Source: Agelas oroides (taxonomy: Eukaryota > Porifera > Demospongiae > Agelasida > Agelasidae). Taken from it: a DNA stretch of 64,000 nt. A program made the translations under genes and the position numbers. The stretch is taken from NCBI GenBank assembly GCA_949130485.1, contig OX422184.1, positions 18,895,824-18,959,823 of the forward strand. Reading direction: 5' to 3'. Under the pieces are notes generated by a model that saw nothing but the letters and a program-made list of their open reading frames with translations, made no database searches and had not been told where the DNA came from. Shown here in pieces: positions 6,600 to 63,405 of the stretch (position 1 is its first letter; every line of letters starts with the position of its first letter).

Positions 6600-9500
6600 G
6601 TAGTCTTCTAGTTGAAACATTAACATCTGATAACAACTTGATGTGTAAATTTTTGTGGTAGAAAAACTACACAACAATGAACAGCCAACCGAGAGAATTC
6701 CTGTCACAGAGTAGCTAGCTGTAAACAAGTGATCATCATTACATTTCCTCAGTACAAAAATTTCCTTTCAAGTGTGAATTCCATTCCAAGAAGGAAATGA
6801 AGACTCTAGTCTATCCATAATCATGACTGTAAGCACTATTACAAATGATTATGAATACACTTAGGTAGACAGAAAGAACGCACTTCGCACACACGTTGAG
6901 CGGTACGTTTTTCGCTTCGCGAACGCACGAACGCTTGGGGCAGAAACTTCAAGATAGATCGTTCTTTCGATCGGGGACCCCTCCCCCCACCTGTCTTGAT
7001 AGACAAAACGTCATTCACGTGATAAATGACCAGGCCTTCCCCTCCGATTTTGCATACTGCAAGCGTCAAAAAGTGGACGGTGGGAAGGCCTGTTTGCCAT
7101 TCAATTTTTTTTGACTATGTATACTCCTAGCCTCGTTCCCACCCATGAGCCTATAGAGGAGACAGAGGCAACACATGAACAAGGCAGAGTCACGAGAGAC
7201 AAATGGAAATAGATCCAGCCTAGACGCATGCATGCACGTCTCTTTCAAAAACAAGTGGTCATACTAAGCTGGATCGACTTAATTCTCACTTCATCCCGCA
7301 TCCTTCAGCTCTGCAAAGTTCTAATGCATTAGCTAGTTGGAGAAGTTTCTTGGCCTGTATGCAATACCATCCAGCATGCAGCAATACACTGGATGTATAT
7401 GATATAGTACATGCCCAAGTGTACAAGTAGCTACCATCGTCCTAAAAGCAGTAGGTAGCTAGTATTTATGCAAGGACTTATATCTAGTGTATTCATAATC
7501 ATGATTATCAATGTTACATACTATTACAAAGGAGCCTCAAGCAAGACATAAGCTAGACATAGAAAGTCACAGCAAGCACTTTTCCTCTTTTGTAAACAGT
7601 AAAAGAAAGTAAACACTTTCATTCTCACCTAGCAGCTGTACAGATCTCAGAATGCAATCTGTGACATGGTTGAAGAGGTTTTCTGACCTAAATGCAATGT
7701 AGTAATTCAGTCTTATCCACATTTTCCCACTATGAAATACGACATTTTGAGTGCTCAATTCTACAACAGTAGCTACTCTTGAAAATACACATTCTGATGT
7801 TTATTTTAATTTGTAGTGCTAGGTTGTGATTTAGCGTCATTTTGCTGATACATATACTTGAAGCCCCATCAAACAATGTATGGTAAACTTCATACTTCAT
7901 ACTACATGACTTGAAATGTAGATCAAAAGTACTTTGAAAATCATACCTGTGGTTCAATTACACAAGGTTTAATCATCTTCATTAAGTTCAAATAATACTG
8001 CTGTTCATTTACTTGAACTTGACAAGTGTGAATCACAACTTTCAAACCAGCATCAAAAAATGTAAATTGAATTCTAAAGAAGAAAATGGTGGCAGCAACT
8101 AGACATTTGTAGCATAAGCTAAGTACTACTACAATTAGTCGCAAACTTTCATTCTCAATATGAATATCTTCAGGTGTGCAAAGCATGATATAACTGGTAC
8201 ATGTCATTTCATTCACCAACTGATTGGTACTACCAAATTCAAGTGCTGGAAATCATGTCAAATTTTTTTTACCAATTCAGTTATCTCTTCAATTCCCCCC
8301 CCCCCCCCCCCCACCTTATATATTTAAATATATATATACACATACATATATATATATGAGAGAAGAAGAGAGCCTGGGATAATATACCACAGCTGGTAGA
8401 CACCATATCTGTACCAGTAGCCTACATGAACCATCCTTCACACTCAAGGAGCTAAGAACACCGACAAAGCATTTTGAGAGACGTTGGTTGGTGTTGTAAA
8501 GAAGCACTGTTGCCATCAAAAGCACTGTGGACACATGGGATGCACTGTAACACAGCAAGCCAGTAGCTAAGTGCACACTTCACTGAAGTGTCAAATTGAC
8601 TTGTAGTTTGGCCGCTGTAAAATCCTGTGTCACCATAGGTCCCATTTATGATGGTAAATGTTTGGCCCTGTATAGTCTCCGTGGATTACCTATCAAGCTT
8701 AGTGCTTTAACTGAAGATACTTCAATGATAACTGCATCAGCTGTGGGGTCAAACTTCAGTAAGTCCTCTCAGACTTGGAAAGAAAGGCTAAAACATTGGA
8801 TAGTCATGTGCACTTTTGTGGCTTTTTCTCAACTATTCTACCATACTTTTTTTCTTTCTTTCCACTGGGGGTGCAACATTTGATTTTTTCCACAGAAAAA
8901 GAGAATAGTAATGTCACATTTTAATATTTTATATTACAAAATAAGTAGGTTTATTGGAGTGCTTGGGTACATCTAGAGCTGAATTGTGGTCAACCATAAG
9001 AGCTAGCTAGAGCCCTGATGGCATATTTTCAGAGGCTGGCAGGTATGCAACTAAAATGTTCAGGATTGTGAGAATTGATTGCTGTGTGGTGGTCTTAGCT
9101 CGATCGGTGGCAGAAGAGCATTGTCAGTGCAGGCCAAGAACCCTTGGCATAACCATACATACATAAGCAACTGCTGGCTGTTCAACTTTTGCTTTATAAA
9201 TTTAAACATATTTTCGTTTAAAAATCAGTATTCTGGAAAGACACAGAACACAAAATAGTTAATATGAGCCGTACATGGATGTCCAATAAAAATTGATAAA
9301 TGTGGGTTATATATGGTTATATGTAAGTTGCATATCAATGGCACAATGGCACTGTCAGTCCAAAAATATTGATAAATGGGGATGTATGGATTAGTAAGTT
9401 ACATGATAACATATCAATGACACAAAGTCAGTCCAAAATTGTTGATGAATTTGGATGCATGGACATTCAACATCTACTCTGCAAATAAAAATCTTTTCAA

Positions 9501-10736
9501 CATGCCTGTAGTTGTACCGAAGTAACATACAAATGTTACAAGGTCAGTTTGTAGTGATATAATTATAATATGGAGCCTGAGGGAGAAAAAGATATGGGTC
9601 ACTTGAGCACAAGTGGACAGGAAACAAACAAGTAATGACTTTAGTTCTCATGCAGTCATTAGAACTCCAATTACATAATTATTATTATTACATAAATGTA
9701 GGGCATTGTGAGTGACTGCATACTACTAACTTACTAACTTTGAAACACTTGTGTTAGCTATGTGGCTACTTGGGTGTATTGCAAAAGTTGCAGGGTGGGT
9801 ACATACAAAATTAGTAGAATTAGCGTTAGGTTTGAACTGTTATGGGTGTGCCTACTGGCTTCTTGGTTAGTTTGGGCTTAGGAGTCATATAATGACAATG
9901 GGATCTATATATTCACTGAAGCAAGAGCTTTTCCTGACATGGCTAGTACATATTCATACTTGTCTCTGATCAGAGACAAATACTGTATGAATATGTACTA
10001 TGAATATGTCCTTCAAACTTCCTTTTAACCACTAGTATTTGACACCATAAGAAATGATAGATCCACCAGGACAAGTACAACAACGAGCACTTAAATACTC
10101 AAAATAGCTGAAAAAATTACCTAACAGTCACAGTCCATCACACAGGGACTAGCATCCTGTTCAAGGCTAACTTCATTACAGTACATAACTACTATGTATG
10201 TACTTGCACCGAGCAACTTGTGGCAGGCTTAGAGATGCATATCTGAATTCTATACCTGGCTTTGGCCATTGTAGCTAATGGTTGAACTCAAATCATCTTG
10301 GCATAATAAGGCAGCTAGCTTTGAGTGTCTAATGACACTATTCCACAATGCCTGCATGCATGGTGGTGTTGTACTGCCTTTAGTGTGGTACTATACAGAC
10401 AATAATTATCATACTTACTGAACTCTGAGGTTAAAAATTCTGTTCTTGTGGTGTGGAAGGTTGACAACTCATTATGTAGTAAAGAGAAAGACATCTCTTA
10501 TCTGGTACCTTCAGTGGTTGTTGAGGTAGGGGTACAACACAGAAAGTCAGGAGTTAGAAAATTTACCACTATAGTTTGTGCTATGCAAAGTTATGGAGAC
10601 TCCATTCATACATTCCAACCAAAAAATGGCCTTGAGTCAGCTACAAAAATCTCTTCCTAATGACCAGTCTGAAGGTGGTATCCATTCAAGCAAATCCTGT
10701 TGATAAAAACCATCAAGGATGCTGTTATTTTTTGCA
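6600..10736. other. Gene-free interval with simple repeats
   Basis: No convincing exon was found on either strand. It holds one more copy of the GTGTGAATTCCATTCC module (about 6771), a truncated TAGCCTCGTTCCCA repeat end (about 7129), an 18-base poly-C run (about 8297) followed by an alternating TA/CA tract (to about 8358), and AT-rich filler. Short frames here lack domains and splice context. Confidence 0.6.
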
Positions 10737-13700
10737 TCATGTGGTACACCAGCAAGCATGCATGCAGGTTATAAGGTGTTGTACAAAAGAGGAAGCTGGG
10801 AGAGAGGTTAAGTACCTATACTATACCACATCTTACCATATTTTTGGTGGATGAATGTGACTGCTTCATCCATCCCAGCAGCCTGTAATCCTTCAACTAG
10901 GCTCTTGTATGTTGGTGAATTGTCATTATTTAGCCAAAACTGAACCATGGCGCTAGTGCAATCCTCGACTAGAGTTGGTGAATGCTGACAATTTGCTTGG
11001 ATTTCGTTTAGTTTGTCAGTTTTAATCTTCAGTTTTGAGCCCAAATTGCGCCAATGTGCACGTGGAATAGATAGATTAGTCAAGTCCCTCAGCTCTGGTA
11101 TCTTTTCTGGAACAGAATCTACTAGGACAAGAGGAGGTAAATACATATAATATCATGTATTAGTAGATTTTTCATGTAAATGCAAGGTTTCCACATTCCC
11201 CATGCTGGACACAAAGCAGTGTAGGAAGGATTTCATAGTAGTAAGGTCATGCATTTCGGCACATACGTAAGCACAGAAGCTAGTGTAAGGGTATGCACCC
11301 CTAGAAAAGCTTTTTGCAATAAAATGCTCTGAAGTCACTTCTGAAACCACTAATGCCATTAAATCTTCCGCTCAGCTTTCACTCTGTATCACTGTCTTGA
11401 TGCACACAAAAACAAAGATCATGGTCCTAGTTTTTGAGAACAGTGACTTTTGCAGTTCCCAAAATCATGTTAGGGAAAACTGAAAATGTTATGGTAGGTA
11501 AGGTGTTTCTTGTGCTGTCAGACTCCAGTGGCATGTGTCTGTATCTTGAAAGGAGTGACAATGTAAGCCTGGGCTCTGACTTGCTAAATTGAAATAAGAC
11601 TAGCTGATATGGAACTTAAAGCAGCAAACACTATAGACCACATGCTCTAGTGCAGTCTTCAGTCAAATTGCGGTCAGGCCTTATGGCATGGAAACCAAAC
11701 TCCTCCAAATGTACAACTCACTCAATGCTAAACTGGCAGAGTTGGAAGTGATGCTGCCAACAGCATTAGACACCACACAGCAGTAGCTCCCAACATCTGA
11801 TGGCTGGACATTTTGTATAGTGAGCATCTCATTGGCAGTTACGAATCTCTCATCACTGGGAAGTGGACTCCCATTCTGCTTCCATGTGTATATGCTTGAT
11901 CCAGCAGCAGTCACAGTGAATGTTACACTGGTACCAGGAATGATATTCAGCTTGTTGTGTGGATGTCTGGTGATCGTGGGAAGATCCACTGAATAGAGTG
12001 AGGAGGAAGAGTGGGGTGGGGAAGGGGTGATGTGTAATGTTGTCTCTTTGGTGGAACAATGTCACATCTTATAGCTAGTTAGGTGGACACAAATCAATTA
12101 CAATAGCGTAACTTTAGGTGGCTCTTTGACTTCTACTAGCACCAAAAGGTCTGTATTGCTGTATTGTAGATAGCACATACAGAAGCCATGCATAGTTGAC
12201 TTGATTTGGGTGGGCCTACTGACAAATTGGATGGCACCCTGGCCAACCCTCGGCTTGCCACTGATCGTACTACAAACTGAAATTGTGGGACACTAGGAAA
12301 AGAATGAGTTTTCAGCTAAAGTGCTGTGTAAACGTGATCTATTCACACACACCCATGAACACATGCAACACAATACAACAGATATACACAAAGACATATA
12401 TACACTTACAGATAATTAACTCTGCAACACTGGATGGCACACTACCCTCAGTATTAGTGACAGTACACATGAAGTTCCCCTCATCCTCTTTCACAACATT
12501 CACCACAGTTAGGGTGGCAGTGTCGGTGCCTCTGTATTTGTCACCATCACTGACAGTCAGATTGTTTCCATTCCTCTGCCACTGGTATGTGTGGTCACTG
12601 TCAGTGGCCTGTACCGTGAATCTGATTGTGAATCTGATATTCTTCCCTGGAACCATCTTCAGTTGACTAGTACCATTAGCAGGGTAGTCAACTGGAAAGA
12701 AATATAACACAATCTAGCAGTAGGTATAGTGATAAATGCTGTGGCATCCAAGCAGCAATTAAATATTCGGAGGAGAGTAATCGAATAACATTCTCTACAA
12801 TGAAAAATGTTTCCCCAAAAACACAAAACATGTTCATGCACATGAGTACTGTCTGTAAATACAAGTACATGTCTTACGTATTTACATTTTTCCTTTATGC
12901 TCTCACTCTCACTTGTATACTTGGTCACTCTACTGTCAATTGATCTCTTGCCACTTTGTCACTTGGTACAGACACCTCATTACTTGGCAGTATGCTTACT
13001 TATTCACAACAGGCTACCTAGCCTGAAGGTGAAATGGGTCTTGCTATAAACACAATTATGAACTGTGAAATGATTATCAATATCATAAACATAATATAGG
13101 TATGAAGAACTTTACTTTCTGAGGATGAGCATGCAATACTTATTTGTATTCTTTGAGGAAAACAATTATGCTTATATACCTAGGTTTATGGTTGATATCA
13201 TTACTACAAAGCAATCCTGTGAACATGCCCCAAAACTGATGCATACAATTAACATAATGGTTACAATTGCCATGGTTGCATAGAAACATTAAAGCACTCA
13301 CCATTATGGTTAACTGTCATTACCAATGTCACCAACTGCCAATAGAGTATGCTGCACTCATTTAGTTTCCTTTGTAGTTTCTGCATAGTGTGAATGTCTT
13401 TCCCATTATCTGTTAGCCTCTGCAGAATTTTGAGGCACTCTGAGGAATCAGAATGCTCAAACTGTTTCATTTGCAGGGTTACCTCTTCACCAGTAGACAC
13501 AGCTTCAAATGAAATTTTTGTTTTGTGCATTAGATCTGCAATAGTTTCCAGAAAGTCACCTCTAGCTGTTTTAACTTCCCCGAAATGTTTCCAAAGTTTA
13601 TCCTTATCAAGACCATAGTAGGGATCAAAAACATTATTAAACAATTCTTTTGAATCAATCAACTGCTCATCTTTTCCACAAGTTAGAGATGTTCCACTTT

Positions 13701-16700
13701 CACTTTCAAGTGACCGTTTTGCTAGATAATTAAGAGGAAGTAGAGCCGCATCAGTTACTTCCACTGGATATGCAACTTTTTGAGGACGAATCAATGATTC
13801 TTTCACCTCAACTGCATCATGACATGTGATGCCAAGGATAAGATTGATGATATTTGTCCAATTCTGAGCACATTTAATCTTACAATCACTCCGACAGCTT
13901 GCCAGAACGACTACTGACTCATTGTGTTTCCCTACTTCTACAACAGTTTTTACTGAATTTCCAGTCCACCGTAACCCCTGTTGCCATATAGTAACTCCCT
14001 TTCCTTCCTGTTCATCAAGGTTGAAGAGGAAATCAACCAACTGCTGCAGAAGAACATACAACAATTTTGATGCCAGTCTACTACCTCCAACACATTCAAG
14101 GTACCAGCCACACTTGATATTTCCATGTAGCTCCCACTTTTGGCCTGAACTGCCTGGCTTGTCTTTGCTAACATCATGCCATTGAGGGAAAAAGTAATAC
14201 TTGTCTTTCGTGTTAAGTTTCAAGCATTTGAAGTTCTCTTGTTTCACAATATGACAGAACTCCAAATGAATCAACAACTTTATAATCAATTCTGTGTCAC
14301 TCCCTTCATTTAATTTAATAAAGAGTTTACAGAGTTCTGAATGTGATACAATGCTAAAACGTCGTCTGTCGACTTCTGAATGTGAACTGAAATCTCGTCT
14401 GACTGGTTGAGCTGCCGAGCTCTTATTTGCAATTTCTGGTAAGCTCCCAATAACATCACAGAGCAACACTCTTCTAAAACTGTCAGTGACTATCCAACTT
14501 TCCCCATCTTTATCATCACTTTTCAAAAGCAGAACATGTCCTGTTTCATTCAGTTGAGAAGCAAGTTCAAATAGGGAAGATGGGTTGGAAGGCAACAATA
14601 CTCCTTCATTTTTGGTATCCTCTGCAAGTGATGCTACAGAAATGGCCTTGGTTTTATTTTTCATTAAGTATCCATGAAGAAATCTGCACCCTACATCTAC
14701 TTTTATATTCTTCAGTGAGCAGTGCTGTTTGAGTTGTTTAAACAGCTCTTCAATGTCACTAGACGTAGGATATCTGTTGTCCAAGGGAATAATTTGTTCA
14801 CTAAAGTCATAGTATTCACTGTGTGGAACTTTGATGAATTTTTTTTGTAGTTGATAATTCTCTTGACTCAGACTATCAACATGGCTTGCAATAATTATAA
14901 GCTGTGGTTGATTTGGTGTCTTGACTTTCATTGCTTCTGCTTCTGTCTTTACCTTTAAAGAATAGTGTGTGATGAAGTTCAACCATTTGGTGACAGCTTT
15001 TTCAATTTCTTCCTGTTTTTCAGTAATCTTCACCACTAGGAGAAACACTGGAGGTGAATATGGAAACACTGGAGGTGAATATGAAGTGGAATGAAATAGA
15101 ACAGTAGAATGACTTGTGTAGTGCTTGTCTTGACCTGCAAAGTCATATATGAGAATATTGCCAATTCTACTACTTGTACACATGTATGGAATAATGCCAG
15201 AGGTGCAAGACTCTGGCTTGGTAACTGTTCTCGTGCGTGGCTTAGAAATGAGCTTTGCAAATGTGGGAATGTCTTTGCTGCATAGGGCTCGGATTAATGT
15301 ACTTTTTCCAGCTCCTGAATTCCCAATCACAAATAGCTTCATAAACGGATTTGAAGTGTTCTTTGCCACTATATTTTGGTATTTGGACATCTCTTCTTTT
15401 ACTTCAGAAGTAGTGGCAAGTTGGATTGGTGTCATTCCGGCTGCATTTTTCACATCAAACTTTACCCTTCCACATGAAAGGAGAGCCTTTACAGTATGTA
15501 GATCTCCATTTTGACAGGCAAGATGAAGAGGTGTGTTTTCTTGTTTGTCTCTGGCGACAGGATCAGCTTGCATTTCTTCAGTTAGTGGCTGAATTAGACT
15601 GCTGTATCCTCTAACTGCAGCAATGTGTAATGGTGTCTCCCGTTTGTCATTTAGAACATTGCAGTCTGCCATTCCACATGAAAGGAAAGCCCTTACAACA
15701 TGTACATGTCCACGTATGCAAGCAAGATGAAGGGGTGTGTTATTTTCTTTGTCTCTGGCAGAAGGATCAGCTCGCATTTCTTCAACCAGTGGCTGAATTA
15801 GATTGTTGTTTCCCTTAGCAGCAGCAATGTGTAGTGGTGTCTTTCCTTCAGAATTAGTTAAATTCGTCACTCTCAGGTTGAACATTTTACTAAGTTGATA
15901 TATGACTTCTTTGATATTGCAGTAGCAAGCACTGTGTAGAATTGTATCACCATTCTTGTTTTTTAAAATTGTACAATTAAGTTTGGAAATAATTTGACAC
16001 AATTTTGTGACAACTTCACTTTCAACTGGAGCTGGAAGTTCCCGAAGGAGTATGTGTATTGCAGTATCACCATTTTTATTTCGGATGTCTAGGTAGCTAT
16101 CAGAGGTATCCAAATGCTTCCAAATTAGCTCAATACCAATTTCAGGAAAACATTGGACCAGGAGGTGAAGTGGTGTATCTTTGCTTTGATCCTGTAGGGT
16201 CAAACCTATGGTGTTTATGGTGGTTGTGAGGATTTCAACAACTTTCTTTTGATTTCTTACATGAAACAGAGCACATCTACTTTCACTGTGGCATAAAGCA
16301 TCTGGTTTTGATCCAGAGTCTGTGAAATCCCTTCTATGTTGGGACAGTATTATGTGGAACACAGTATCTTTGTTTTTGTTCTGAACATTGGGGTCAAATT
16401 TCTTGTGCTTTATCAATGGTATAAGAAGGCTAGAATCCCACCACTCTTCACTTTGAACCATAAGGTGCAGTGGAGTGTTGCCATCTACATAATCTGTAAT
16501 AGATGGGTTCATTAAGTTAAAATGTGAACTTTGTATTAGCAGGTGGAAAACTTCTTTGCGTTTTCTGATGGATACCTGTTTACTAAGGCAAAGAACATGT
16601 GTTACTGTTTTGCCTGTTTGATTTTGAACATTTGGGTCAAATTTTTCATGGTTCACTAAGAGTTTCAAGAGGTTTACATCATACCATTCTTCAACTTGGA

Positions 16701-17760
16701 GCATGAGATGTAGTGCAGTGTTGCCATGCATATTTGTGATGAAAGGATTATTCGAATGTCCCACTAACAGATTGAAAGCATTTTTTTGTCTGCTACTATC
16801 CTGAGAAGAGCCATGTTCAGGATTGCAGAGAACATGAAGTGATGTGTCTCCAGCTAGATTTTGAATATTTGGGTCAAATCTACTGTGCTTTACCAAAAGG
16901 TTCAGAAGATCAGTATCCCACCATGCTTTGTTATGAAGCATGATGTGTAGAGGAGTGTCGCCATGCTCATTTTTGATGAAAGGATTCACATCTGGATGTT
17001 TTATCAACTGTTGAAAAACCTTCTTATATCTCCACATGTTGAAAGACTTCTGTTCTCTAGAACAAAGCATGTGCAAGATGGTGTTTTTGCAATTATTTTG
17101 AATATTTGGTTGACATTTTTTAAGTACAAGAGCAACATTTTCCGCATTACACAGATCTTCATCCTGACATAACAAGTGCAACACTGTATTGCCATTTTTA
17201 TCCTGGATATTTGGGTCAACAGATGGCTGAGCAAGGAGTAGGTTAGCTATTGCAGTTCTGTCTCCAGATTTCCAGTAGACATTAGAATTAAACAAGTTGT
17301 GCACTGGAGTGCGCATATGAATATTTCTGAAATTCAGCTGTTGATCATTATCATTTCGAATGAGAAATTCCACAATTTTTACCTGAAGATGGTGGCAAGC
17401 TACATGTAATGGTATATCCCTTTCATTGTTTTGACAGAGTAGATCATATTTTTCATAATCAATGAGCCACTGCACCAGCTTCAGTTTGCCATTGTTACAA
17501 GCAACATGTAACACTGTATCCCCTGTTCTGCTGTCACAAATTGGTTTACAGTGGGTACATTCACTAAAGTGTTTTCCATGTAGGATGGCTCCAAGTATGC
17601 AACGTTGGTATTCACTGTAAGGCTGAGAAACAGCAAGCATCAATGGTGTCTCTTCCAACTGATGTTGATGATGGCACCTTTTGTCATTCACAAGTGTTGA
17701 TATGACAGATAAAGCATCATCTTTTGTGCTCCTTTTTTCTTCACTGACTTGAAATGCTGA
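10737..17760 (-). CDS. Ankyrin-Roc-COR-Ig-Ig-Death protein (DAPK/Roco-like multidomain gene)
   Basis: Minus-strand exons: 13302-17760, 12410-12691, 11722-11988, 10837-11121, and a possible terminal exon 10737-10795 (41-nt intron, then TGA). Every intron is phase 1 and every junction keeps frame. Exon 1 encodes about 20 ankyrin repeats (residues ~40-800 of a 1501-residue frame). A Roc GTPase follows: P-loop VIGNSGAGKST near 812, DFAGQ switch II near 875, a degenerate G4 (SHVD) near 959. A COR-like region reaches ~1480. Exons 2 and 3 each encode one Ig domain (YQWQRNG...GNFMCTV; YTWKQNG...GSYCCVV). Exon 4 encodes a death domain (HWRNLGSKL...VEGLQAAGMDEAV). Roco-death proteins such as DAPK1 are intracellular GTPase scaffolds in cell death and innate signalling. 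No kinase domain is seen. The 5' end is unresolved: the frame is open to about 17850 without ATG, and an acceptor GTGCAG lies just before 17760. Confidence 0.8.
15040..15080 (-). repeat. 18-bp tandem duplication inside the Roc GTPase coding region
   Basis: The unit CACTGGAGGTGAATATGG is repeated head to tail, in frame. It gives the peptide YSPPVFPYSPPVF between switch II (DFAGQ) and the next hydrophobic strand (LLVVKI). The six-residue insertion sits next to a core beta strand and may change the GTPase fold. It is read directly from the sequence. Confidence 0.8.
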
Positions 17761-17815
17761 CTGCACAGCATGTCTTTCTGGTAAACTAGAAGTTGTGAAA
17801 CTCCTTCTAGGTGAT

Positions 17816-18125
17816 GACCTCCATCTTAGTGTTACTGAATTGGCTCAAAAGTTAATGAGATTGGTTATGAGGAAGGATAAAGACAAAATGATCCATATGG
17901 ACTAAAAATAACCGACAAATCTAAAGCCACAGCATTACATCATGCTTGCAAAGGTGGCAACATAGACATACTTAAAGAGCTTTTTTTTAAGAAGTCACAG
18001 CATTGGGATATCAATTGCAGAACTGAAACAGGGGATACTCCATTACATATTGCTTGTGAAGAAGGTAATGCTGATATTGCTGCTTTTTTGTTAGAGAAAA
18101 AGAGCTGCAAAGTAAACCCTACAAG
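17816..18125 (+). pseudogene. Decayed ankyrin-repeat gene, 5' part
   Basis: From about 17889 the plus strand encodes two recognisable ankyrin repeats (ATALHHACKGGNIDILKEL, then GDTPLHIACEEGNADIAAFL). Stops lie just upstream, and a LINE interrupts the frame at about 18126. Ankyrin coding resumes at 20083 on the other side. The gene starts within about 100 bp of the Roco gene's 5' end and points the other way, so the two are divergent. Confidence 0.75.
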
Positions 18126-19968
18126 GGAGTTAGTTAGTTAGTTAAATTGATTTTATCCATAGGAATGGGTTACACAGGAGGTCATGGACCTATCTAGTGT
18201 GCTTCCCTAAAAGAAAAAGACTTACGTGTACAAAATAACAGAGATATTAGCTAGTAGAACATATGATTGACACAAATTCACGATATAAAGACTATGGCAA
18301 CACAAAAGGAGGAAGACACTGCTTCAACTTATATTTAATATACCAAACCATTGCAACCAAGGCCACTGAATCTCTTGGTAATATCTTCAGGAGATTCAGA
18401 ATTCTAGTGGCCTTGGTTGCAATGGTTTGGCAATGGTTATTCCACTTTAACTTTGTGTCTATTAGCACTCCCAAGTATCTGAATGAGTCCACCCACTCCA
18501 GGTTTGTGCGATTTAAACAGTATTCAAATCTGATTGTTGTCCTTCTGTTTGTTATTTCCATCACTTTGCATGTCTCTACATTCAGTGCCAACTGCCAAGT
18601 CTTTGTCCAATTTAAGATCTTCTCCAAGTCCCTCTGCAGTTTTTCTGCATCTCTTCTATGAGACACTTCTCTATAAATGACACAGTCATCTGCAAAGAGT
18701 CCTTCGTCCATAATGTCATTGATATATATGATGAACAGCGGAGGTCCCAGTACAGATCCTTGTGGCACACCTGATGTCACTGGAATCCATGAGGAAAAAC
18801 AGCCATTCACTACAACTCGTTGCATTCTTCTGGTTAGGAATGATTCAATCCACTTTAAAACTTGGCCTCTAACTCCAATGTGATTCAGTTTGATCAGCAA
18901 CCTCTGGTGTGGGACACTGTCAAATGCCTTGGCAAAGTCTAAGAATATAGCATGGGTCGATTTTGCTCTGTCAAGTGTGGCAGCCCACTGATGAATTGTC
19001 TCCAGAAGTTGGGTGAGGCACGAATGTCTTGGTCTGAATCCATGTTGTACTGTGCTCAGTTTACTGTGTTCATCGAGCTTCTTTGCAATGATTCTCACCA
19101 TGATCTTCACAACTAGTGAGGTTAGGCTAACAGGTCAATAATTCCTAGGTTGGTGACAGTTCCCCTTCTTATAAATTGGAGTAACATTTGCTGCTTTCCA
19201 GTCACTTGGAAGAGATCCTGTTGCCAGAGACTTGGTGAATAATTTTGCTAGTGGCTTGGTAATGAAAGAAGCAGCTTCCTTCAGCAGTCTACCTGGTAGA
19301 CCATCTGGTCCGCATGCCTTCTTGACATCAAGCTTCCACAGTTCCTCATACACCTCCTGCTCTGACAGAGCACAGACATCAAAGGACTGTGGACATGGTT
19401 CTCCTGGTAGTTTTGCTTTAATCTCTTGTAAATTACTAGTGTCTTCTCTCGTGAACACTGATTGGAAATACCTGTTTAGAACCTCTGCCTTTCCAGTATC
19501 AGTAGTATGGACCTCATTGCCATGATAGAGTTGAGGTATTCCACTGTCATTTTTCCTGATCTTTTTCAACCAGCTCCAGAAGGGTTTGGGGTTTGAAGAG
19601 TTTTGTAAGTTTGCTGCTATCTCTTCGATATGAGCTTGGTGATCACGTCGTGTTAACTGCCGCACAGAGTTACTGGCAGCTCTGTACCTCGCATAATCCT
19701 GGTCTCTACCTGACCTTTTTGCCTTCCTGTAGAGCCTACTTTTTTTCCTGATGGCTTTGATAGTCTCCTTGTTTAACCAGCATTTAGATTTCTGTGGTTT
19801 CCACATTACCCTGGGGATGCACTCCATTACTACTGCATTGAATGTGTCCTTCCATTTCTGCCAGTTTTCTTCAATGCCATCATCCATCTGTGTACACTCC
19901 CAGGGAATATTGGCCATGTAGTCTCTAAAAGCATCAAAATCAGCTTTCTTGTAGTTGTATACAAATCT
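18126..19968 (-). mobile_element. LINE retrotransposon (CR1/L2/Jockey-like), 5'-truncated, with one in-frame stop
   Basis: The minus strand encodes an endonuclease-RT linker (RFVYNYKKADFDAFRDYM), then reverse transcriptase: ACGPDGLPGRLLKE, ANVTPIYKKG, HGFRPRHSC, FLDFAKAFDSVPHQRL, SGVPQGSVLGP, LFADDCVIY (FADD catalytic box) and SFRYLGVLID. The TGA at 19135-19137 stands where the family has Arg in the 'NYRPVSL' motif, as one C-to-T change would produce. The 3' end (low coordinates) carries a (TTAG)n-type tail. The element lies inside the ankyrin pseudogene and is inactive. Confidence 0.9.
18343..18430. repeat. Perfect 25-bp inverted repeat within the LINE RT end
   Basis: The arms CCAAACCATTGCAACCAAGG...(18343-18367) and their exact complement (18406-18430) enclose 38 bp. 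The loop itself holds a nested TGAATCTC/GAGATTCA pair. The plus-strand frame spells YQTIATKAT and the minus strand CQTIATKAT. The RT C-terminal sequence therefore occurs in both orientations, which points to a local inversion/duplication of the element's end. Confidence 0.85.
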
Positions 19969-19969
19969 T

Positions 19970-20082
19970 CTTGAACTACCCCAAACTCATGTGAAATTAC
20001 CCTATAGTCCTTGTTCCCTCCATCGCACAGTGGTTGGAGAAGGTTTGGTAGGGTTGAACCACCCTGAACTCATGTTAAATTC
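19970..20082. repeat. Solo copies of the CATGAGTTTGGGG repeat family
   Basis: Reverse-complement units of the family that forms the array at 23365-23780 (CCAAACTCATG, CCCTACCAAACC-type strings). They lie between the truncated 5' end of the LINE and the resumption of ankyrin coding. A further partial unit follows the ankyrin pseudogene at about 21570. Confidence 0.65.
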
Positions 20083-21570
20083 CTCTTATGCATGCTACAA
20101 TGGATCACTGAAAGCTGCTGAAACACTAATAAGATGCAACATAAACACTACAAATAGAGAAGGTAACACCCCACTTCATATTGCTTATGTGGGTGGTGCA
20201 ATAACCAAGTTTTCTGACCCATTCTTGAAGTTTTTATCTAGCAAGCAAGGATTTGACAGAGATAGTTCAGAGTTTTGCCTATAGCAAAGCTTCTCCTAAA
20301 ACAACCTGAATGCGATTCAAACTGTCAAAATAGAAAAGGTGCTACCCCACTACATATTGTGTGTGCAGGAGGTCAGCTGGAGATCTTCAAATTGCTTATT
20401 GAAAGAAGTGGCTGTGATGTCAATTGCAGAGATAGACATGATAATTCTCCACTACACTTGGCCTGTCATGTAGGTCATTGAAGTTGTCCAGATACTTTTG
20501 AAGAAAGATAACTGCATCTTAAGTTGTTCAAATGAAAATGGTGATACTCCTCTTCATATGACTTGCAAAACCAAACAAGACAACTCAGAAATAGTCAGAC
20601 TGCTTATTGACAAAGGCTGTGATCCAAACTGTAAAAATAAGGAAAAATTAACACCCTTACAGTGTGCATTCAACATGGGAAATACAAAAGTGTATGCAGT
20701 TCTTCATGAAGGAAAAGAAAAGAACCCTACTAGTTTACTTTTGCATCGTGCTTGCAAAGATGGCAGACTTGAAACAGTTAAGCAGCTTCTAAGCAGAGTT
20801 AACTGTGACCCTAACTGCACAGATGAAGATGGAGACACTGCTCTCCATATTGCTTGTCACTGAAACAATTCAGACTTAGCTGAGCTTTTGTTAAAATCTC
20901 CCAAGTGTGATCCTAATATCAAAATACCAAAAGAATGGCCCCAATTCATATAGCCAGTAGAGGGTAACACTGACATCATCAAGTTGCTTCTTTGCAAGAA
21001 AGGAATTCAATGTAACATGAAAGCTGGTAATGGTTGCACAGCCTTACATGCTGCTTGCTTCTTTTGCCATCTTGAAGTTGTTAAACTCCTGCTAGATCAT
21101 GATGAATGTGATGTTAATTGTAGGGATGAAGAAGGTGCTACACCCCTTCATTATGCATTCTTGAGGCCTGCTGGTCATTCTCATGTAGACTTACCACCGG
21201 ACACAGTTTGCATAGAAAAACTATTAAAGAACTACTCTCTGATCCTAAGACTGTGATGTTAATTGTCAGGATAAAGAAAATGCTACACCTCTTCATTATG
21301 TATCCTCAGGTGAATATTGCCTTGGTGGACAGGTTGAAACTGCTAAACTCCTTTTAGAGAGGAATGTTTGTAATCCAAATTGCAAAACTATAAATGCCTT
21401 CACATTGCTTACTATAGTGATGAAGATGTAACACAAATTATTGATATGCTGCTTCAAAATTCCTGCGATCCTAATATTCAAGACAACAACGATATGATAC
21501 CACTGCACATAGCTTGTGCAAGAGGTTTCACAGATACAATATCACAGCTAATATTTGCTGTTCATGAAAC
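20083..21570 (+). pseudogene. Decayed ankyrin-repeat gene, 3' part
   Basis: At least ten ankyrin repeats are readable on the plus strand, among them GNTPLHIA, GATPLHIVCAGGQLEIFKLL, DNSPLHLACHVGH, GDTPLHMTCKTK, GDTALHIACH, GCTALHAACFFCHLEVVKLLL and DMIPLHIACARG. Many contain a CDVNC or CDPNC loop. Stops or shifts near 20282, 20479, 20861, 20950, 21254 and 21415 break the frame with no splice sites to rescue it. With 17816-18125 this is one dead ankyrin gene split by the LINE. The repeats resemble both the adjacent Roco protein and the minus-strand fragment at 25610-25841. Confidence 0.85.
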
Positions 21571-21615
21571 CTCTTCTAACTACTACATTACAGAAGGAAC
21601 ACGGATTATAATGTG

Positions 21616-22296
21616 AACAAGTCACAAAAAAGTTTGCCAAACGCAAACAAGCACATGTAGGGATGAAATCCTCAAAAACCAACCAAACAAGACGGGAACG
21701 ACACCACAATACTTTTACACCATCCCTACATCTTGTGCCATTTTGCCAAAACTGTGTGTTTGTATTTGTTTTTTAGTTGTGTGTAGAAGAGGGTTGTCTT
21801 GTAGATGGAAGGGTGTGGCGTGGGTGTGTTGTGCATAGTGAGTATGTTGTGTTGTTGGTGGTTGCTACTGAGTGTAGCAGGTATGGTCCAAGTTGTGTGT
21901 AGGTGTGGAGTGAGTGAGGAGTGGTGAGTGTGTGTGGTATGTTGGAATGTGCATTATGTTGTTAAGTTTTATGCCTGTTTAGCATGATAGATATGGGTTG
22001 TCTTGTATACAGGTGGCTGTGAAGTGAGTAGTGGTAATTTTGTAATGCTTTGTGAAGGATGGGTTATTTTGTGAGATAGTTGAATGGAGTGAAGTACTAT
22101 GTTTGTTTGTGGTTGGTGTGGGCTAATAATTACAAATGTAGAGGGTTTTGTGTTGTGTACAGGTGGCAAAATGGCACAAGATGTAGGGATGGTGTAAAAG
22201 TATTGTGGTGTCGTTCCCGTCTTGTTTGGTTGGTTTTTGAGGATTTCATCCCTACATGTGCTTGTTTGCGTTTGGCAAACTTTTTTGTGACTTGTT
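21616..22296. mobile_element. Foldback/MITE-like element with ~130-bp terminal inverted repeats
   Basis: The left arm, about 21618-21748, starts ACAAGTCACAAAAAAG. It is repeated almost perfectly, in reverse complement, at about 22164-22295. The arms contain TTTGCCAAACGCAAACAAGC and GACGGGAACGACACCAC. The ~415-bp interior is strongly GT-biased on the plus strand and codes nothing. Arm identity implies recent mobility or gene conversion. Confidence 0.85.
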
Positions 22297-22481
22297 TCTG
22301 TTGTTTTTTTGTTGTTGTTGTGTAACCACACCCCAAGTGAAATGACTTGTTATGTAGTTTATTGTTGATGTTGATGGATTTCTGGAGGATGTTAGCTGTT
22401 TGCACTTATCCACTTGACAATGGAATCATGGGTGTAACTGTTGTCTAATTGGGTATGTGCATGTGTGTGTGAGTGGTTGTT

Positions 22482-25609: not shown

Positions 25610-25841
25610 CTGAAATGTCCAGGTTGCATTTTCCTTTGGTCGTAAGAGCAAGAATTAGTTTTACATTTTCTTTTCTGGCTGCAATGTGAAGTGGAGTTCT
25701 ACACTTTTTGTTTCTGCAGTTTGGATCAGAGCCATTTTCAATAAGTAGCCTGACTATTTCAGAGCAGTCACCTTTGGTTTTGCAAGCCATGTGAAGTGGT
25801 GTATCACCATCTTCATTTTGCCATTTTATATCTTTTTGCAA
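25610..25841 (-). pseudogene. Ankyrin-repeat fragment on the minus strand
   Basis: Encodes GDTPLHMACKTKGDCSEIVRLL followed by CRTPLHIAARKENVKLIL, about two ankyrin repeats with a DPNC loop. It closely matches the plus-strand unit at about 20530-20640 (GDTPLHMTCKTKQDNSEIVRLL), so it is an inverted duplicate of part of that pseudogene. The frame runs into unrelated sequence by 25600. It may be an upstream exon of something unseen, but no partner exon was found. Confidence 0.65.
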
Positions 25842-39223: not shown

Positions 39224-40474
39224 AAGACAAATAAAGCGTCATTGGTTTCAGAGTTTAACCGTATTCGAAGTGAAGCTGGTCAAGATACCATTTCTGATTA
39301 CTCTGCAACGACTTGGCTCAAACAAGAACGTCCAAAGATTGCTATTTATCCGCATCAGGCCGATTATTGTGACTTTTGCTCCAAAGTCAAAAAGGAGATT
39401 CAAGGCCATCAACAGAAAACTAATCGTCTGAAACAAAGTGGTAGTGCTAGAGCTGAAGATATTCAAGCAGCAGAAACTAACAAGGCACAGGCAGAGCTTT
39501 TAGTTTCAAACCATAGAGAAGTAGCACGAGAATCACTGAAATACTACAAAGAAATGAAAATGAGGTGTGCCAGTGATTGGAAGGAGATTCAAGAGCTCCA
39601 AAAATCATCTGATAATTCAGCAAGGCTAGAGGAACTACAGCATAAATTCACACTCATACTAAGTGCTGATTACCAGATGAGCAAGTTGTTGCCGTACTGG
39701 GGCTCAAGCCAACAACCAAGCTCAACTTATTACATGCAAAAGGCCTCCTACGATTTGTTTGGAATTGTTGATCATCGAACAGAAGCAGGGTTTGTTTATC
39801 TGTTCAGTGAATGTATTGGACCCAAAAATACTGACCACACTTTTTCTTACTTACTACACTACTTAAAGAGTAGTGGACATGTCCCTGGATGGATCAAAAG
39901 GGTTCAGGTCTTCTTAGACAATGCTGGATCTACCAACAAGAACAAATTTATGATGGCGTCCATCTACGAGGTAGTACAACAAGGAATTTTGAGTTATTTT
40001 TGAGTATCATTTATGGTGGTAGGACATACCAAGTTTGCCCCAGACCAAATGTTTGCTCAAATAGCCAGAAGTTTCTACTCCTCGGATGTTTTCAATGAGA
40101 AAGATCTGTCTGCAGTTGTTGGCAGACACACCAATGTCATAATGGACAGTGGACGAATTGTTCGCACCTGGCGTGAAGTTGTTAGTGAAAAATATACTAA
40201 CTTACCCGGGATCAGAAACCTTCATGATTTTATAGCTTTGTGTAACCCAGGTTGCAACTCAATTATGAAAGTTAGGGGGAAGTGTTACACAGGTGAACTA
40301 GTGGACACTCCAATGAGAATTGTTGACTCCTCACGTATTGCTTTACCAACTATAAGCCACAGTTATCATGCACAAAGGAAGGTTAAAGAGCTCTCAGAGA
40401 CCAAGAAAACTGATTTAAAACAAATGTATACAAACTTTATACCTAGTGAGCAATGGCATGAGTTACTAAGTTAA
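39224..40474 (+). pseudogene. DUF7869-type transposase-like gene, N-terminally truncated, one in-frame stop
   Basis: A plus-strand frame is open from 39224. It encodes SEFNRIRSEAGQDTISDYSA, a CDFC knuckle in a basic region, a coiled helix, then VFLDNAGSTNKNKFMMAS (putative RNase H-like acidic DN motif). A TGA lies at about 40001-40003. The same frame resumes with FMVVGHTKFAPDQMF, which together with the DN motif is the hallmark of DUF7869 proteins found in cnidarian and sponge mobile elements (family memory). It ends at 40472 with QWHELLS. Only one stop breaks the body, so decay is recent. No terminal repeats were identified. Confidence 0.7.
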
Positions 40475-48510: not shown

Positions 48511-51500
48511 AAATCTCAAACTCCAGATTCTTCCTCTGCACATCCTAATGCGGCGAAACTGGTACCAGGCATACAAATTGATTCGGTTGTTTGGCCATCC
48601 CTCATACGCACCAACACAGGCCTGAGCTCTTGGTGATCCAGTTATACAACTTGCACACAGCCTTCCCTCTCCACTACCCTCAATTTGATATTCAAAAATA
48701 ACATCTACTGATACTCCACCTCTAGCCAAACTCTGCAGAATGAGAAATTAATTCAGTTAACATAATAAAAGTCATATTTAGTGATTTGTGACACCAGGCA
48801 TGTAAGGTGGTGGAGTCAATTGAGAAACACAGCCTTACATATTTGATCTCCCAAAACCTTATAGGCAAATTGGAGATATGATTGATGAAAATAATGAGCC
48901 GTTCAAATTTAAGTTTGATGAAATTGACACATGCAACTCTACTACCAAATTTCCTCATAATGTTGTGGAAAAGCTCATTTAAAAGTAGCTTCTGTGAAAG
49001 ATGTGTGGACCAAGCTCAGTGGTGCAAGATTTGCTTTAAATTGTACATAGTTACACTGGACTGAGGACCCCCCATCCTCACCAATATGTTGCCTCTAACA
49101 CCACCTTCAACTGTCAAAGTCAAACGTGGACCAATTCCAGCAAAGCCACGAAGTGTGCTTGAATTGGCGCATAACTCAGTTCGAAAGTCAATGTTAGCTT
49201 GCACATGAGGTTGCAGGTAGAGTGATAGAGTTCCAACATAAATGAATATGCTGTATGACACACGAGGCAGACTATATCTTGGTGAGGAATATAAGGTTCT
49301 TGATGGAGTAGGAGTGCAGTTAGAGAAACTTGTTGCATTGGACAAATCAATAAGTACATTACTGAGCACTTTGAAGTACAGCTTAGCGTGCACTTGGCTG
49401 TCTGTTTTCTCCAGCAATACTTCAGCATGCAGTATATTCCATGACCAACGAAGTAAATTTGCTCGTGCAATGACTTTGCCAAATGCCTTCAGGTTTGGAC
49501 AACGATGTCCAATAAACAATCCAGCACCAACCTTAAGGTTTGCCTGGCTAATTCCAAGTGTTTTGCCCCAGATATAAGCTCTGTGGTTTGTGTAATTCCG
49601 AACATCAGCAGCACGGCTACCTTGTGAAGCAACTACATCATAATCTAAATTGGATTCATCCCAATCTGTTCCTCGTCGGTCTCTGCTTTGAGAAAACTTT
49701 TTCTCTGTTGCTATGATGTTTTCAAGAGCTTCAGCTAACCCTTCTGATTCAGGTGTCTCAAATGTTTCAACAAACGAGAGAATGAGTTCCGCTAACTGTA
49801 TATCTCCAAATTGCACAGCAGATGCTACAAGTGCTGTCTGCAGCTCCATCGACGGTGTGTAATCTATATCTCTTTCATCGAAGTATTTGGCTCCCTCACT
49901 AAGTGTTTCTGCAATGGCCACTACATGCTCATAGCTTGCAGGTGTAGTTTGAAGTATGGAGTACAGAGTTTCCTCTACAACTGGATCGTTAATGAGCTTT
50001 CGCAATGCATTAATGGAGGCAAGCTGCACTTCAAGGTCACTGTGGTTATGAAAGGAGATGATAGTGTCCAGTGCAAAGGGAGACCCAGTGTTTCCTAGCG
50101 CATGGATATAGTGAACCATTGTCATCACTGATCTTGGAGCTTCTTCCATTCTGTTCAGAAGGAATTGAGCAATTCTCTGTTCACTCTTCTCTGTTGTTTC
50201 AGAGGCCAGTGCACCATAGGCCAGCAGCAGTGGATCAAGATGATCATCATTTGAGATAATAATCTGCTCCAGTTCAGTTAACAAAGTCGGACTTGCATGG
50301 CGAATAAAGGCAATGTACAATACAATGCTTGTTTGCTCATTTTCTTTAGATGCTTGCTGAAGATCTCTGATAATGGCCTGGAATAAATAGAAGCAGAAAC
50401 CTCCACTGAAGGTAACAAAAGGGGTATGGTAATATTACATCACAGTAGCCATTTCAATTTAGGTCGGTACATTTGGTATATTCCCTGTTCGCCTACTCCC
50501 ATTTTGCCTACTCCCGTTTCGCCTACTCCCGTTTCGCCTACTCCCGTTTCGCCTACTTTAGAACAAAAACTGGCGTTTCGCCTACTCTAAAAAAACACAC
50601 AATATAAATGCACTATCAAATATACAAAACAATAATACAATGTTTAGACATTAGTGTGTGCGGACATTCCTTGTACATATTCCTCTAACGTAATTTTATT
50701 TGTATCAAAGCGACCCTCAAGGTGGTTGTTGGTTCTGAAGGAGTCATTCCAGTATACACTCCACATGGCTGCCTACCACCATGTATCTTCAAAATACCGG
50801 ATGAACTCCGTGATGCGGGGCAATTGTGGGGCGGCAACTTTGATAGCTTGCCAAGCTAGTCGCACAAAGCGGACTGGTACAAATGCTAATACAGCAGTTC
50901 TTCGAAGGAATCGGTTGACATTTGCATCTTCTCTGTAGGCAACTTGTAAGCCAATATTTTGGAACTTTCTCATCAAAGCTTGCCATACATGACAACCTAT
51001 GATTTCACATCCTTTGACTGTACCAAAACATGGTTGACCTGTACTGGTTGGTACACTCAACTACGTACAGCTCAGTCTTGGTACAGACAAAGCCAGTCCT
51101 AGCACAGGATATCACTTTGACATGGCCCAAATAGATTTTCAAAGACAAGCCTACTTCAGGATGTTGCCTTGACATCACTTTGATGCCCAAAATTAATCTT
51201 TTTAGGAGTAGGCGAAACACCACTTTTTTTGTCTAAAGTAGGCAAAACAGGAGTAGGCGAACAGGTACCAATTTATACATTCTATCACTTTAATGTATAG
51301 TAATTGCAAACACCTACCTTCTGTGACTTGTTACTACCTTCGACACTTAGCAGTGAGTACAGAAGATGTTTCATAGATATATCAACTGGTTCTACAGCAT
51401 TTTGTGTCTGGGTAAAAAGATAACACCAAAGAGCTAATGGCAAGTAATTTAACTACTGCACAGCATTATTAATTTTATCACTGATTACTGGAGTTGCTTA

Positions 51501-61848: not shown

Positions 61849-63313
61849 CTAGGTACGGGAGTTAATATTGATGGTGACAGATGAGCATGAATGGAAAGCA
61901 AATGATGCCGGGATGGTTGTAGATGCGGTGTTTGAGAGTTCAAAAGTAGAAGTGTGGCCCTGAACTGGAACAAGTTGAGAGGATTGAGGTTGTTCGGGAG
62001 GGATGGAGTGTTGAACGCAGATCCTCTTTGCACTAAGGATGTCCGACACTTGTTGACGCTGGGTTTCAGATGTCCTTTTGTAAGTACGAACACCTTCTGT
62101 ACTGCAGTGTCCAGTAGTCTCCATGACCAACTGCTCGTCAATCCCCGAGTCATACAGTCTTGTTGCAGCAGTGACCCGGAGAGAATGATTGGTTTTGTAC
62201 CCTGGTATTCCAGCTGACTTGCAGAGGCGAGCAACTGTGGTGCCAAGTTTATGGTATCCAAGTGGCCGGCTGGAATACCAGCAGGTATCAGATGGATTTT
62301 GTAGAGGCATCAAGTAGAAGGAGTCTGCTGGACGATCCGCTGGACATCGGGTCATGTACAACTTGTACAGCCTCACAAAGCATCTGTTGGGGTCATCAAG
62401 GTTTTCGTGGTGGTATACGACTTTGGGCTTCATTTTTCTCCCCTTCAAACCACCAGGACGATTCTTTGAAATGTCCTCCCTGTACACCAGATACGCTCTC
62501 TCTCCTGGTTTTTCGACTAGCTCGATCTGTGGTGGAGTAAATCTGAGTTGGCGGTGTTCCTTGCCACTGCGAAGAGCAAAATTCAGACCATTCATGAAAA
62601 TGATGGTGTCCAGCAGAACCTGAGGAGTGTGGTCACCAAGCAATCCCTTCTGCCACAAGATCTCCTCTTCTTGCATGGTGAGTGGCTCAGCTTGCTTCCT
62701 CTTAGTACCTTTTCCGGCAGCTTGGAGACGTTTCATCTCCGCGTCTAGTGAGCGACGGAAGTCTGGCAAATTCATGATCTTTAAAGAAGTCGATAGCGGG
62801 TTGACCATTCCATCGCAAATGGCGCATTATGCCACAGCAAATGTGGTGTAGACTGTCTGGGGTAAACTCAGAACCATCTTTTTTGCGCAACTCCAGAATG
62901 AAGTAGGAAAGCCATTGCTGCAACTCGGTTGGCTGTAGTTCCGTTAGCTGGGGGATGGAGACTCCGAAATTGCTCTGCCTATGCTGGCACCATTCTTCCC
63001 ACAGTCTAACGCAGTATTGAGTGTCCTGCTGTGTTTTCTTGGGTACTGCAGACACCCTTGCGTCCGCTATCTCCTGCTGCGTCTTCGGTGCAGCAAAAAG
63101 TCTGTTGCTGTTGGTTGTAGCTGGTGTAGGGGTGGGGCTCGTTAGTGGGCGTGGTGGTTCATATTTGCTCGTGACTGGGCGTGGTTGCTGTCGCTCAAAC
63201 GATTCGATGGCGGCAAGGAGAATGCGATCGATATCGTCGGGTTCGTCGGCTTCGTCGCTGTTGTCGTGGCACCATTCCAGTACTGAGTCGCTCAAAAGGT
63301 CTGCGAGATCCAT
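61849..63313 (-). pseudogene. Crypton-type tyrosine recombinase (DUF3504-like), one frameshift
   Basis: ATG 63313 starts an acidic N-terminus and a Pro/Thr linker, then a SAM-like core-binding domain (YCVRLWEEWCQHRQSNFGV, LQQWLSYFILELRKKDG, LHHICCGIMRHLRWNG). Near 62762-62770 one extra base shifts the frame. The second frame, in phase from there to 61849, has the catalytic domain: GLNFALRSGKEHRQLRF (Arg I), TNHSLRVTAATRLYDSGID (His-x-x-Arg), TGHCSTEGVRTYKR (second His and nucleophile Tyr). All five catalytic residues are present. Crypton transposons and their KIAA1958/QRICH1-like relatives show this layout (family knowledge). It is probably inactive owing to the shift, unless that is a sequencing error. 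Confidence 0.85.
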
Positions 63314-63405
63314 GGTTTTTCGGTTCAGTTCTGATTTTGCGTTGTTTCTATGGTTTTTCGTTCGGTTTTTTATAGGCGTTGTTATAGTTTACATACTCTA
63401 AATAA

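Follow-up and report, generated by a model that had tools for sequence, protein, structure and literature searches.

In a stretch of 64,000 nucleotides from the sponge Agelas oroides (contig OX422184.1 of assembly GCA_949130485.1, positions 18,895,824 to 18,959,823; hereafter the window), minus-strand exons for ankyrin repeats, a Roc-type GTPase with a COR-like region behind it, two immunoglobulin (Ig) domains (Ig1 and Ig2) and a death domain follow one another in that order. Our leading model is that they form one fused gene, a proposition that we regard as evenly balanced. If this is one gene, a Roco GTPase scaffold would have gained Ig modules through an intron-phase-compatible insertion to which a relative age can be given, and the locus would let one study, in a natural case, the way in which extracellular modules turn intracellular in animal immunity. 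Should there be two genes or a skipped cassette, the neighbourhood would be ordinary and would warn against linking exons on the strength of phase only. An earlier note on this DNA had proposed the fusion from collinear exons with phase-1 junctions throughout. The collinearity on the minus strand was confirmed by the open reading frame (ORF) listing and Pfam; all junctions between the GTPase, Ig1, Ig2 and death exons are indeed phase 1, and the joined frame runs without a stop.

In the ORF listing of the window, the ankyrin-GTPase part stays open for 1527 codons on the minus strand (17844-13261). Its ankyrin repeats are matched by Ank_2 in nine stretches (E 2.1e-64), and Roc is the best-scoring Pfam family after ankyrin, with 20.6 bits over the whole ORF and 23.2 bits over a C-terminal fragment, both below the Pfam cut-off of 27. 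A P-loop, GNSGAGKST, and a DFAGQ motif were seen by eye in the GTPase part, and against PDB sequences the GTPase fragment gave weak matches alone, with FtsE on top (E 0.04) and the Roc domain of LRRK2 at E 0.39. Behind Roc, a COR domain was matched neither by Pfam (E<=10) nor by NCBIfam, nor was any COR among the PDB sequence matches; the stretch resembles by eye what we take to be COR features, which is a lead and not a test. The AlphaFold model of the Roc-COR fragment, made from the single sequence, was too poor to be used (predicted local distance difference test score 33.8). Both Ig exons exceed the cut-offs of Ig superfamily profiles in Pfam, as does the death exon that of its own family, while no death domain was matched when this exon was compared with PDB sequences (phmmer, E<=10). 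The domain names given in the earlier note are thus upheld by profile search for the ankyrin repeats, both Ig domains and the death domain, but not for Roc and COR.

Splice sites were scored with generic metazoan weights and ranked among all GTs or AGs of the window. The donor that closes the GTPase exon in phase 1 (G/GTGAGT after 13302) belongs to the top 0.3% of GTs, and a donor as good within the last 120 nt is found in 7 of 139 ORFs of at least 80 codons, the GTPase ORF counted. The Ig1 acceptor at 12691 is in the top 0.3% of AGs and has the highest score within 13700-10300; the Ig2 acceptor (11988) ranks in the top 1.2%, the acceptor of the death exon (11121) in the top 0.8% and its donor (10837) in the top 0.7% of GTs. 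A consensus splice site at every exon, as had been claimed, was not confirmed, in view of the donors after Ig1 and Ig2 and of the acceptor at 17760 (score -3.6). The polyadenylation signals AATAAA and ATTAAA are absent from the minus strand between 13301 and 11122, including the interval 12700-13300, in which such a site had been named as a sign of separate genes; scanning of the two gaps gave weaker variants, CATAAA at 13190 and 12899, AATACA at 13150 and AGTAAA at 13116. The case for one gene draws on the collinear exons, the donor at 13302, the acceptor at 12691, the lack of the two standard signals, the synonymous divergence of the Ig exons as against the saturated death exon, a ratio of nonsynonymous to synonymous substitution (dN/dS) below 1 in the Ig exons, the lack of a membrane-span-like exon between Ig2 and the death exon, and a second place in the genome with an Ig-like upstream of a death-like exon (C10:9008531). 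CpG islands were also considered as promoter marks. The CpG observed/expected ratio is uneven in the window, as in methylated genomes (median 0.36, 90th percentile 0.92), and the absence of any CpG-normal stretch from 7301 to 22450 at first seemed to favour a single unit. This argument was dropped because the start of the sole control gene (L045) has no island and because islands occur between the Ig exons of locus L035.

Against a single gene stand several observations on the start, provenance and splicing of the Ig exons and on both ends of the locus. A separate start for the Ig exons, which the earlier note had listed as a refuting sign, is present as a sequence candidate: the ATG at 13273 opens with MAIVTIMLIVCISFGACSQ... 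(fuller stretch MAIVTIMLIVCISFGACSQDCFVVMISTINL), and a phase-1 GT then joins Ig1 in frame. When the gap was shuffled with its dinucleotides kept, 3 of 1000 versions contained an equally strong signal-peptide-like exon, and this strength is also reached in 2 of the 208 tiles into which the window was cut, the exon's own region being counted; at looser thresholds these counts rise to 23-80 shuffles and 6-19 tiles. This raises the alternative of two neighbouring genes, in which the ankyrin-GTPase gene stops at 13261 or splices elsewhere and the second gene starts at this ATG with a signal peptide, continues through Ig1 and Ig2, perhaps as far as the death exon, and encodes a secreted or exported Ig protein. 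The origin of the Ig exons agrees with it. The nearest genomic relatives of Ig1 (60-65% identity, eight places) and of Ig2 (53-65%, eleven places) lie mostly on contig C12, the others on C1 and C2, and three of the C12 copies (L025, L026, L028) repeat the order Ig1 then Ig2. Because the C12 loci carry further Ig exons (confirmed by domain search for L035; one ORF of L025 has no family match) and those on C1 and C2 have ORFs of the Sushi, SRCR, Calx-beta, fn3 and EGF types as same-strand neighbours, the relatives are read as parts of Ig-rich, extracellular-type genes. The proposed start exon itself speaks less well for two genes: its donor is weak (score -0.06), its ATG sits in the read-through tail of the upstream ORF, 29 nt past the strong donor at 13302, and in the 22 loci around Ig or death relatives (L025-L046) it found no credible match, the best having E 0.097. 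Nor would it be sensible for a signal peptide to precede a death domain if no convincing membrane span lies in between. None of 14 membrane-span-like phase-1 exon candidates in 13290-10300 falls between Ig2 and the death exon, and the two hydrophobic 19-residue stretches there (11643-11587 and 11184-11128) are not in a spliceable exon, so a secreted or membrane-bound Ig-death protein makes little sense; a receptor of the Ig-membrane span-death type was rejected at the threshold used. Altogether we consider two genes rather unlikely.

The evolution of the Ig exons can be read in more than one way. Synonymous divergence (dS) between them and their relatives is 0.40-0.70 (seven relatives for Ig1, six for Ig2), while that of the death exon is saturated against all five relatives compared, and for this reason the Ig pair looks younger than the split of the death exon from its sampled relatives. 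The exon shuffling that had been suggested fits here, since the Ig pair is nearest to an Ig1-Ig2 pair on another contig and is less diverged from its relatives than the death exon from those sampled for it, but the shared phase 1 is in itself weak evidence for it because Ig exons are usually phase 1-1. On the window branch dN/dS was 0.31-0.66, over a dS of 0.32-0.64, in all 20 triplet estimates (overlapping and not mutually independent), and constraint has probably acted on the Ig pair. Further points on the opposing side are that the donors after both Ig exons are mediocre (top 7% only) and that dN/dS of Ig2 among relatives of different copies is 1.00-1.63 in 8 of 10 pairs. The Ig2 triplets built on distant pairs are therefore biased low, the close pairs giving 0.66 and 0.46, and the constraint may in part be older than the insertion. 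The join from 13302 straight to 11121 is also in frame and open. The GTPase exon may accordingly be spliced directly to the death exon, with the Ig pair carried passively in the intron, skipped as a cassette or forming a nested gene for a secreted protein; the product would then have the Roc-COR and death domains of the known DAPK1 group, as characterized in the relevant part of PMC6337361, and the apparent youth of the Ig pair would suit such a role. Set against this, the Ig exons retain open frames and splice sites with a window-branch dN/dS below 1, and the Ig1 acceptor outscores that of the death exon, and we hold this skipping to be quite improbable.

The death exon has many relatives in the genome. 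It shares 36-48% identity with seven aligned genomic relatives, and death-like exons occur in at least 126 places at E<=0.01, a count from 150 scored candidates out of 464. In 2 of these 126 places an Ig-like match of the same strand lies within 10 kb upstream, namely in the window itself and at C10:9008531-9009104 (minus strand), where an Ig-like exon precedes a death-like one by 310 bp, start to start. In the 8 kb upstream of each of two death relatives (L003, L004) nothing matched the Ig, Roc or ankyrin parts of the window. Across the 46 loci around Ig and death relatives (294 kb), Roc-COR matches came from window DNA alone and no ankyrin match lay beyond it, so that the architecture was not met with a second time in these loci, which is another point on the opposing side. 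In two of the eight death-relative loci, L006 and L007, which are almost identical, a NACHT-type ORF follows closely on the downstream side, with NACHT confirmed for L006. The reverse arrangement also exists: death-like exons at C10:9270348, C11:256232 and C1:17259773 (minus strand) are followed on their own strand, at a distance of 2.4-9.6 kb, by Ig-like exons, a death-then-Ig order that resembles that of MALT1. At the 3′ end of the window locus, the terminal exon ending at 10737 that had been proposed is one of three possible ends, the others being read-through to a stop at 10808-10810 and an exon from 10696; no standard polyadenylation signal was found downstream to 9000, which also tells against the single fused gene.

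The 5′ end is unclear and adds to the difficulties. The acceptor proposed at 17760 is equalled or bettered by 41% of AGs, the earliest in-frame methionine of the ORF is at 17640, and inverted ankyrin repeats lie upstream. These plus-strand repeats extend over 17745-21306 and are broken by minus-strand ORFs at 18295-19986, named by eye as reverse-transcriptase-like (for 19138-19986 Pfam had no match). The junction at the 5′ end of the ORF is a likely rearrangement breakpoint, and the 5′ end may be truncated. In a still darker reading the whole locus is rearranged and partly dead, an inversion having cost it its 5′ end at the breakpoint and left the exons downstream as mere remnants, as the degenerate inverted repeats from about 17745, the reverse-transcriptase-like ORFs beside the ORF start and the poor acceptor would suggest. 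With an open frame of about 1500 codons, and Ig and death exons that are open and free of stops, we find this very improbable. Further into the flank, an inverted ankyrin pair (25708-25818, minus; 20530-20640, plus) is 83% complementary over 111 nt, and a perfect 133-nt inverted repeat with arms at 21616-21748 and 22164-22296 and 415 nt between them is perhaps a mobile element. A 513-codon ORF at 25512-23974 (minus strand) gave weak kinase-like NCBIfam matches far under the cut-offs and no Pfam match; read by eye it has a catalytic-loop-like HNDVRLPNI and its own methionine, stop and AATAAA. It was rejected as a DAPK1-like upstream kinase, as it has its own start, stop and signal, is cut off by the inverted ankyrin repeats and looks like a separate gene.

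For the single fused gene the following course of events may be proposed. An Ig1-Ig2 pair from an extracellular-type gene would have been inserted into a phase-1 intron between the GTPase exon and the older death exon, and would be spliced in with the frame kept. What the sequence shows are the domains other than COR, their order, strand and phases and an open frame when joined; from these we infer splicing into one transcript for a cytosolic Roco-type scaffold without a kinase in its GTPase exon. Its ankyrin array could bind a ligand, GTP-dependent dimerisation through Roc-COR could bring two copies together, the Ig pair could keep its neighbours rigidly apart or offer a binding surface, and the death domain could recruit adaptors for cell-death or immune signalling. 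The B-strand position is not cysteine in Ig1, Ig2 or ten aligned relatives (position set by eye), and for lack of this cysteine the captured Ig domains would be without the usual disulfide. That a single phase-1 insertion thus domesticated an extracellular-type Ig pair inside a lineage-specific cytosolic ankyrin-Roc-COR-death scaffold for cell death is a tentative proposal, to which we give somewhat less than an even chance.

Table 1. Features of the locus, in order along the window
Feature	Position	Strand	Basis
Possible terminal exon, 19 codons and stop	10737..10795	-	acceptor score 5.44
Death-domain exon, 285 nt, phase 1-1	10837..11121	-	Pfam Death 33.5 bits, cut-off 22.6
Ig exon 2, 267 nt, phase 1-1	11722..11988	-	Pfam I-set 52.4 bits, E 5.6e-14
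Ig exon 1, 282 nt, phase 1-1	12410..12691	-	Pfam ig 40.2 bits, E 4.2e-10
Gap or intron 1, 610 bp, contains the candidate first exon	12692..13301	-	no AATAAA/ATTAAA
Candidate first exon of a second gene, 31 codons, signal-peptide-like, phase-1 donor CTAG/GTATAT, in frame with Ig1	13180..13273	-	sequence
Ankyrin and Roc-type GTPase exon, C-terminal region read as COR by eye	13302..17844	-	ORF, Pfam, donor score
Ankyrin repeats in head-to-head orientation to the ORF, degenerate close to where they meet it	17745..18141	+	Ank matches 17881-18141; 17745-17880 by eye

Elsewhere in the window, ORFs at 61852-63388 (minus strand) matched DUF3504/phage-integrase and QRICH1 in Pfam and resemble a Crypton-type tyrosine recombinase. 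Weak Vitellogenin_N and HEAT matches at 49022-50434 (minus strand) were both under the cut-off, as was, just, a DUF7869 match at 39224-40000 (plus strand), which looks transposon-like by eye.

Death and Ig domains are combined in both this locus and MALT1, a cytosolic signalling protein. The order in MALT1 is different, however, running death-Ig-Ig-paracaspase, and MALT1 has neither ankyrin repeats nor Roc. In DAPK1, ankyrin repeats precede Roc as they do here. Roco proteins with death domains make up the DAPK1 group in the portion of PMC6337361 that deals with them, and the locus, if one gene, would be like this group in joining Roc-COR with a death domain, with the reservation that Roc is here below its cut-off and COR was read by eye. 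It is unlike the group in its two Ig exons between COR and the death domain and in its ORF without a kinase; because no kinase was found in the ORF, the locus is not filed as a DAPK1 member.

Parallels also come from early animals, in which Roco combinations are many. Trichoplax has at least 17 Roco genes, with LRR, TPR, CARD and death domains in various combinations according to the section of PMC11378527 concerned, and the locus would share with these proteins a Roc-COR core amid shuffled adaptor domains. Ig is not among the combinations given there, and the word immunoglobulin occurs 0 times in the available text of PMC11378527. In Amphimedon, death-like domains have been reshuffled with ankyrin repeats to an extreme, species-specific degree, and in the oyster Crassostrea (C. 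gigas) Ig repeats stand together with HEPN and DED-TRADD-N, both according to the corresponding section of PMC8195603. These expansions resemble the locus in their many species-specific combinations of death-like domains and ankyrin repeats, but they are based on TRADD-N, which is not among the Pfam matches listed for the locus, and the section of PMC8195603 devoted to them has no Roc-COR. A literature search that left most subscription journals outside its reach returned no invertebrate paper combining Roc-COR, immunoglobulin and death domain, and no sponge paper combining immunoglobulin, death domain, ankyrin and exon shuffling. Provisionally, a protein of the order Roc-COR-Ig-Ig-death would count as a novel combination among the shuffled Roco and death-domain proteins, and not as a new kind of protein.

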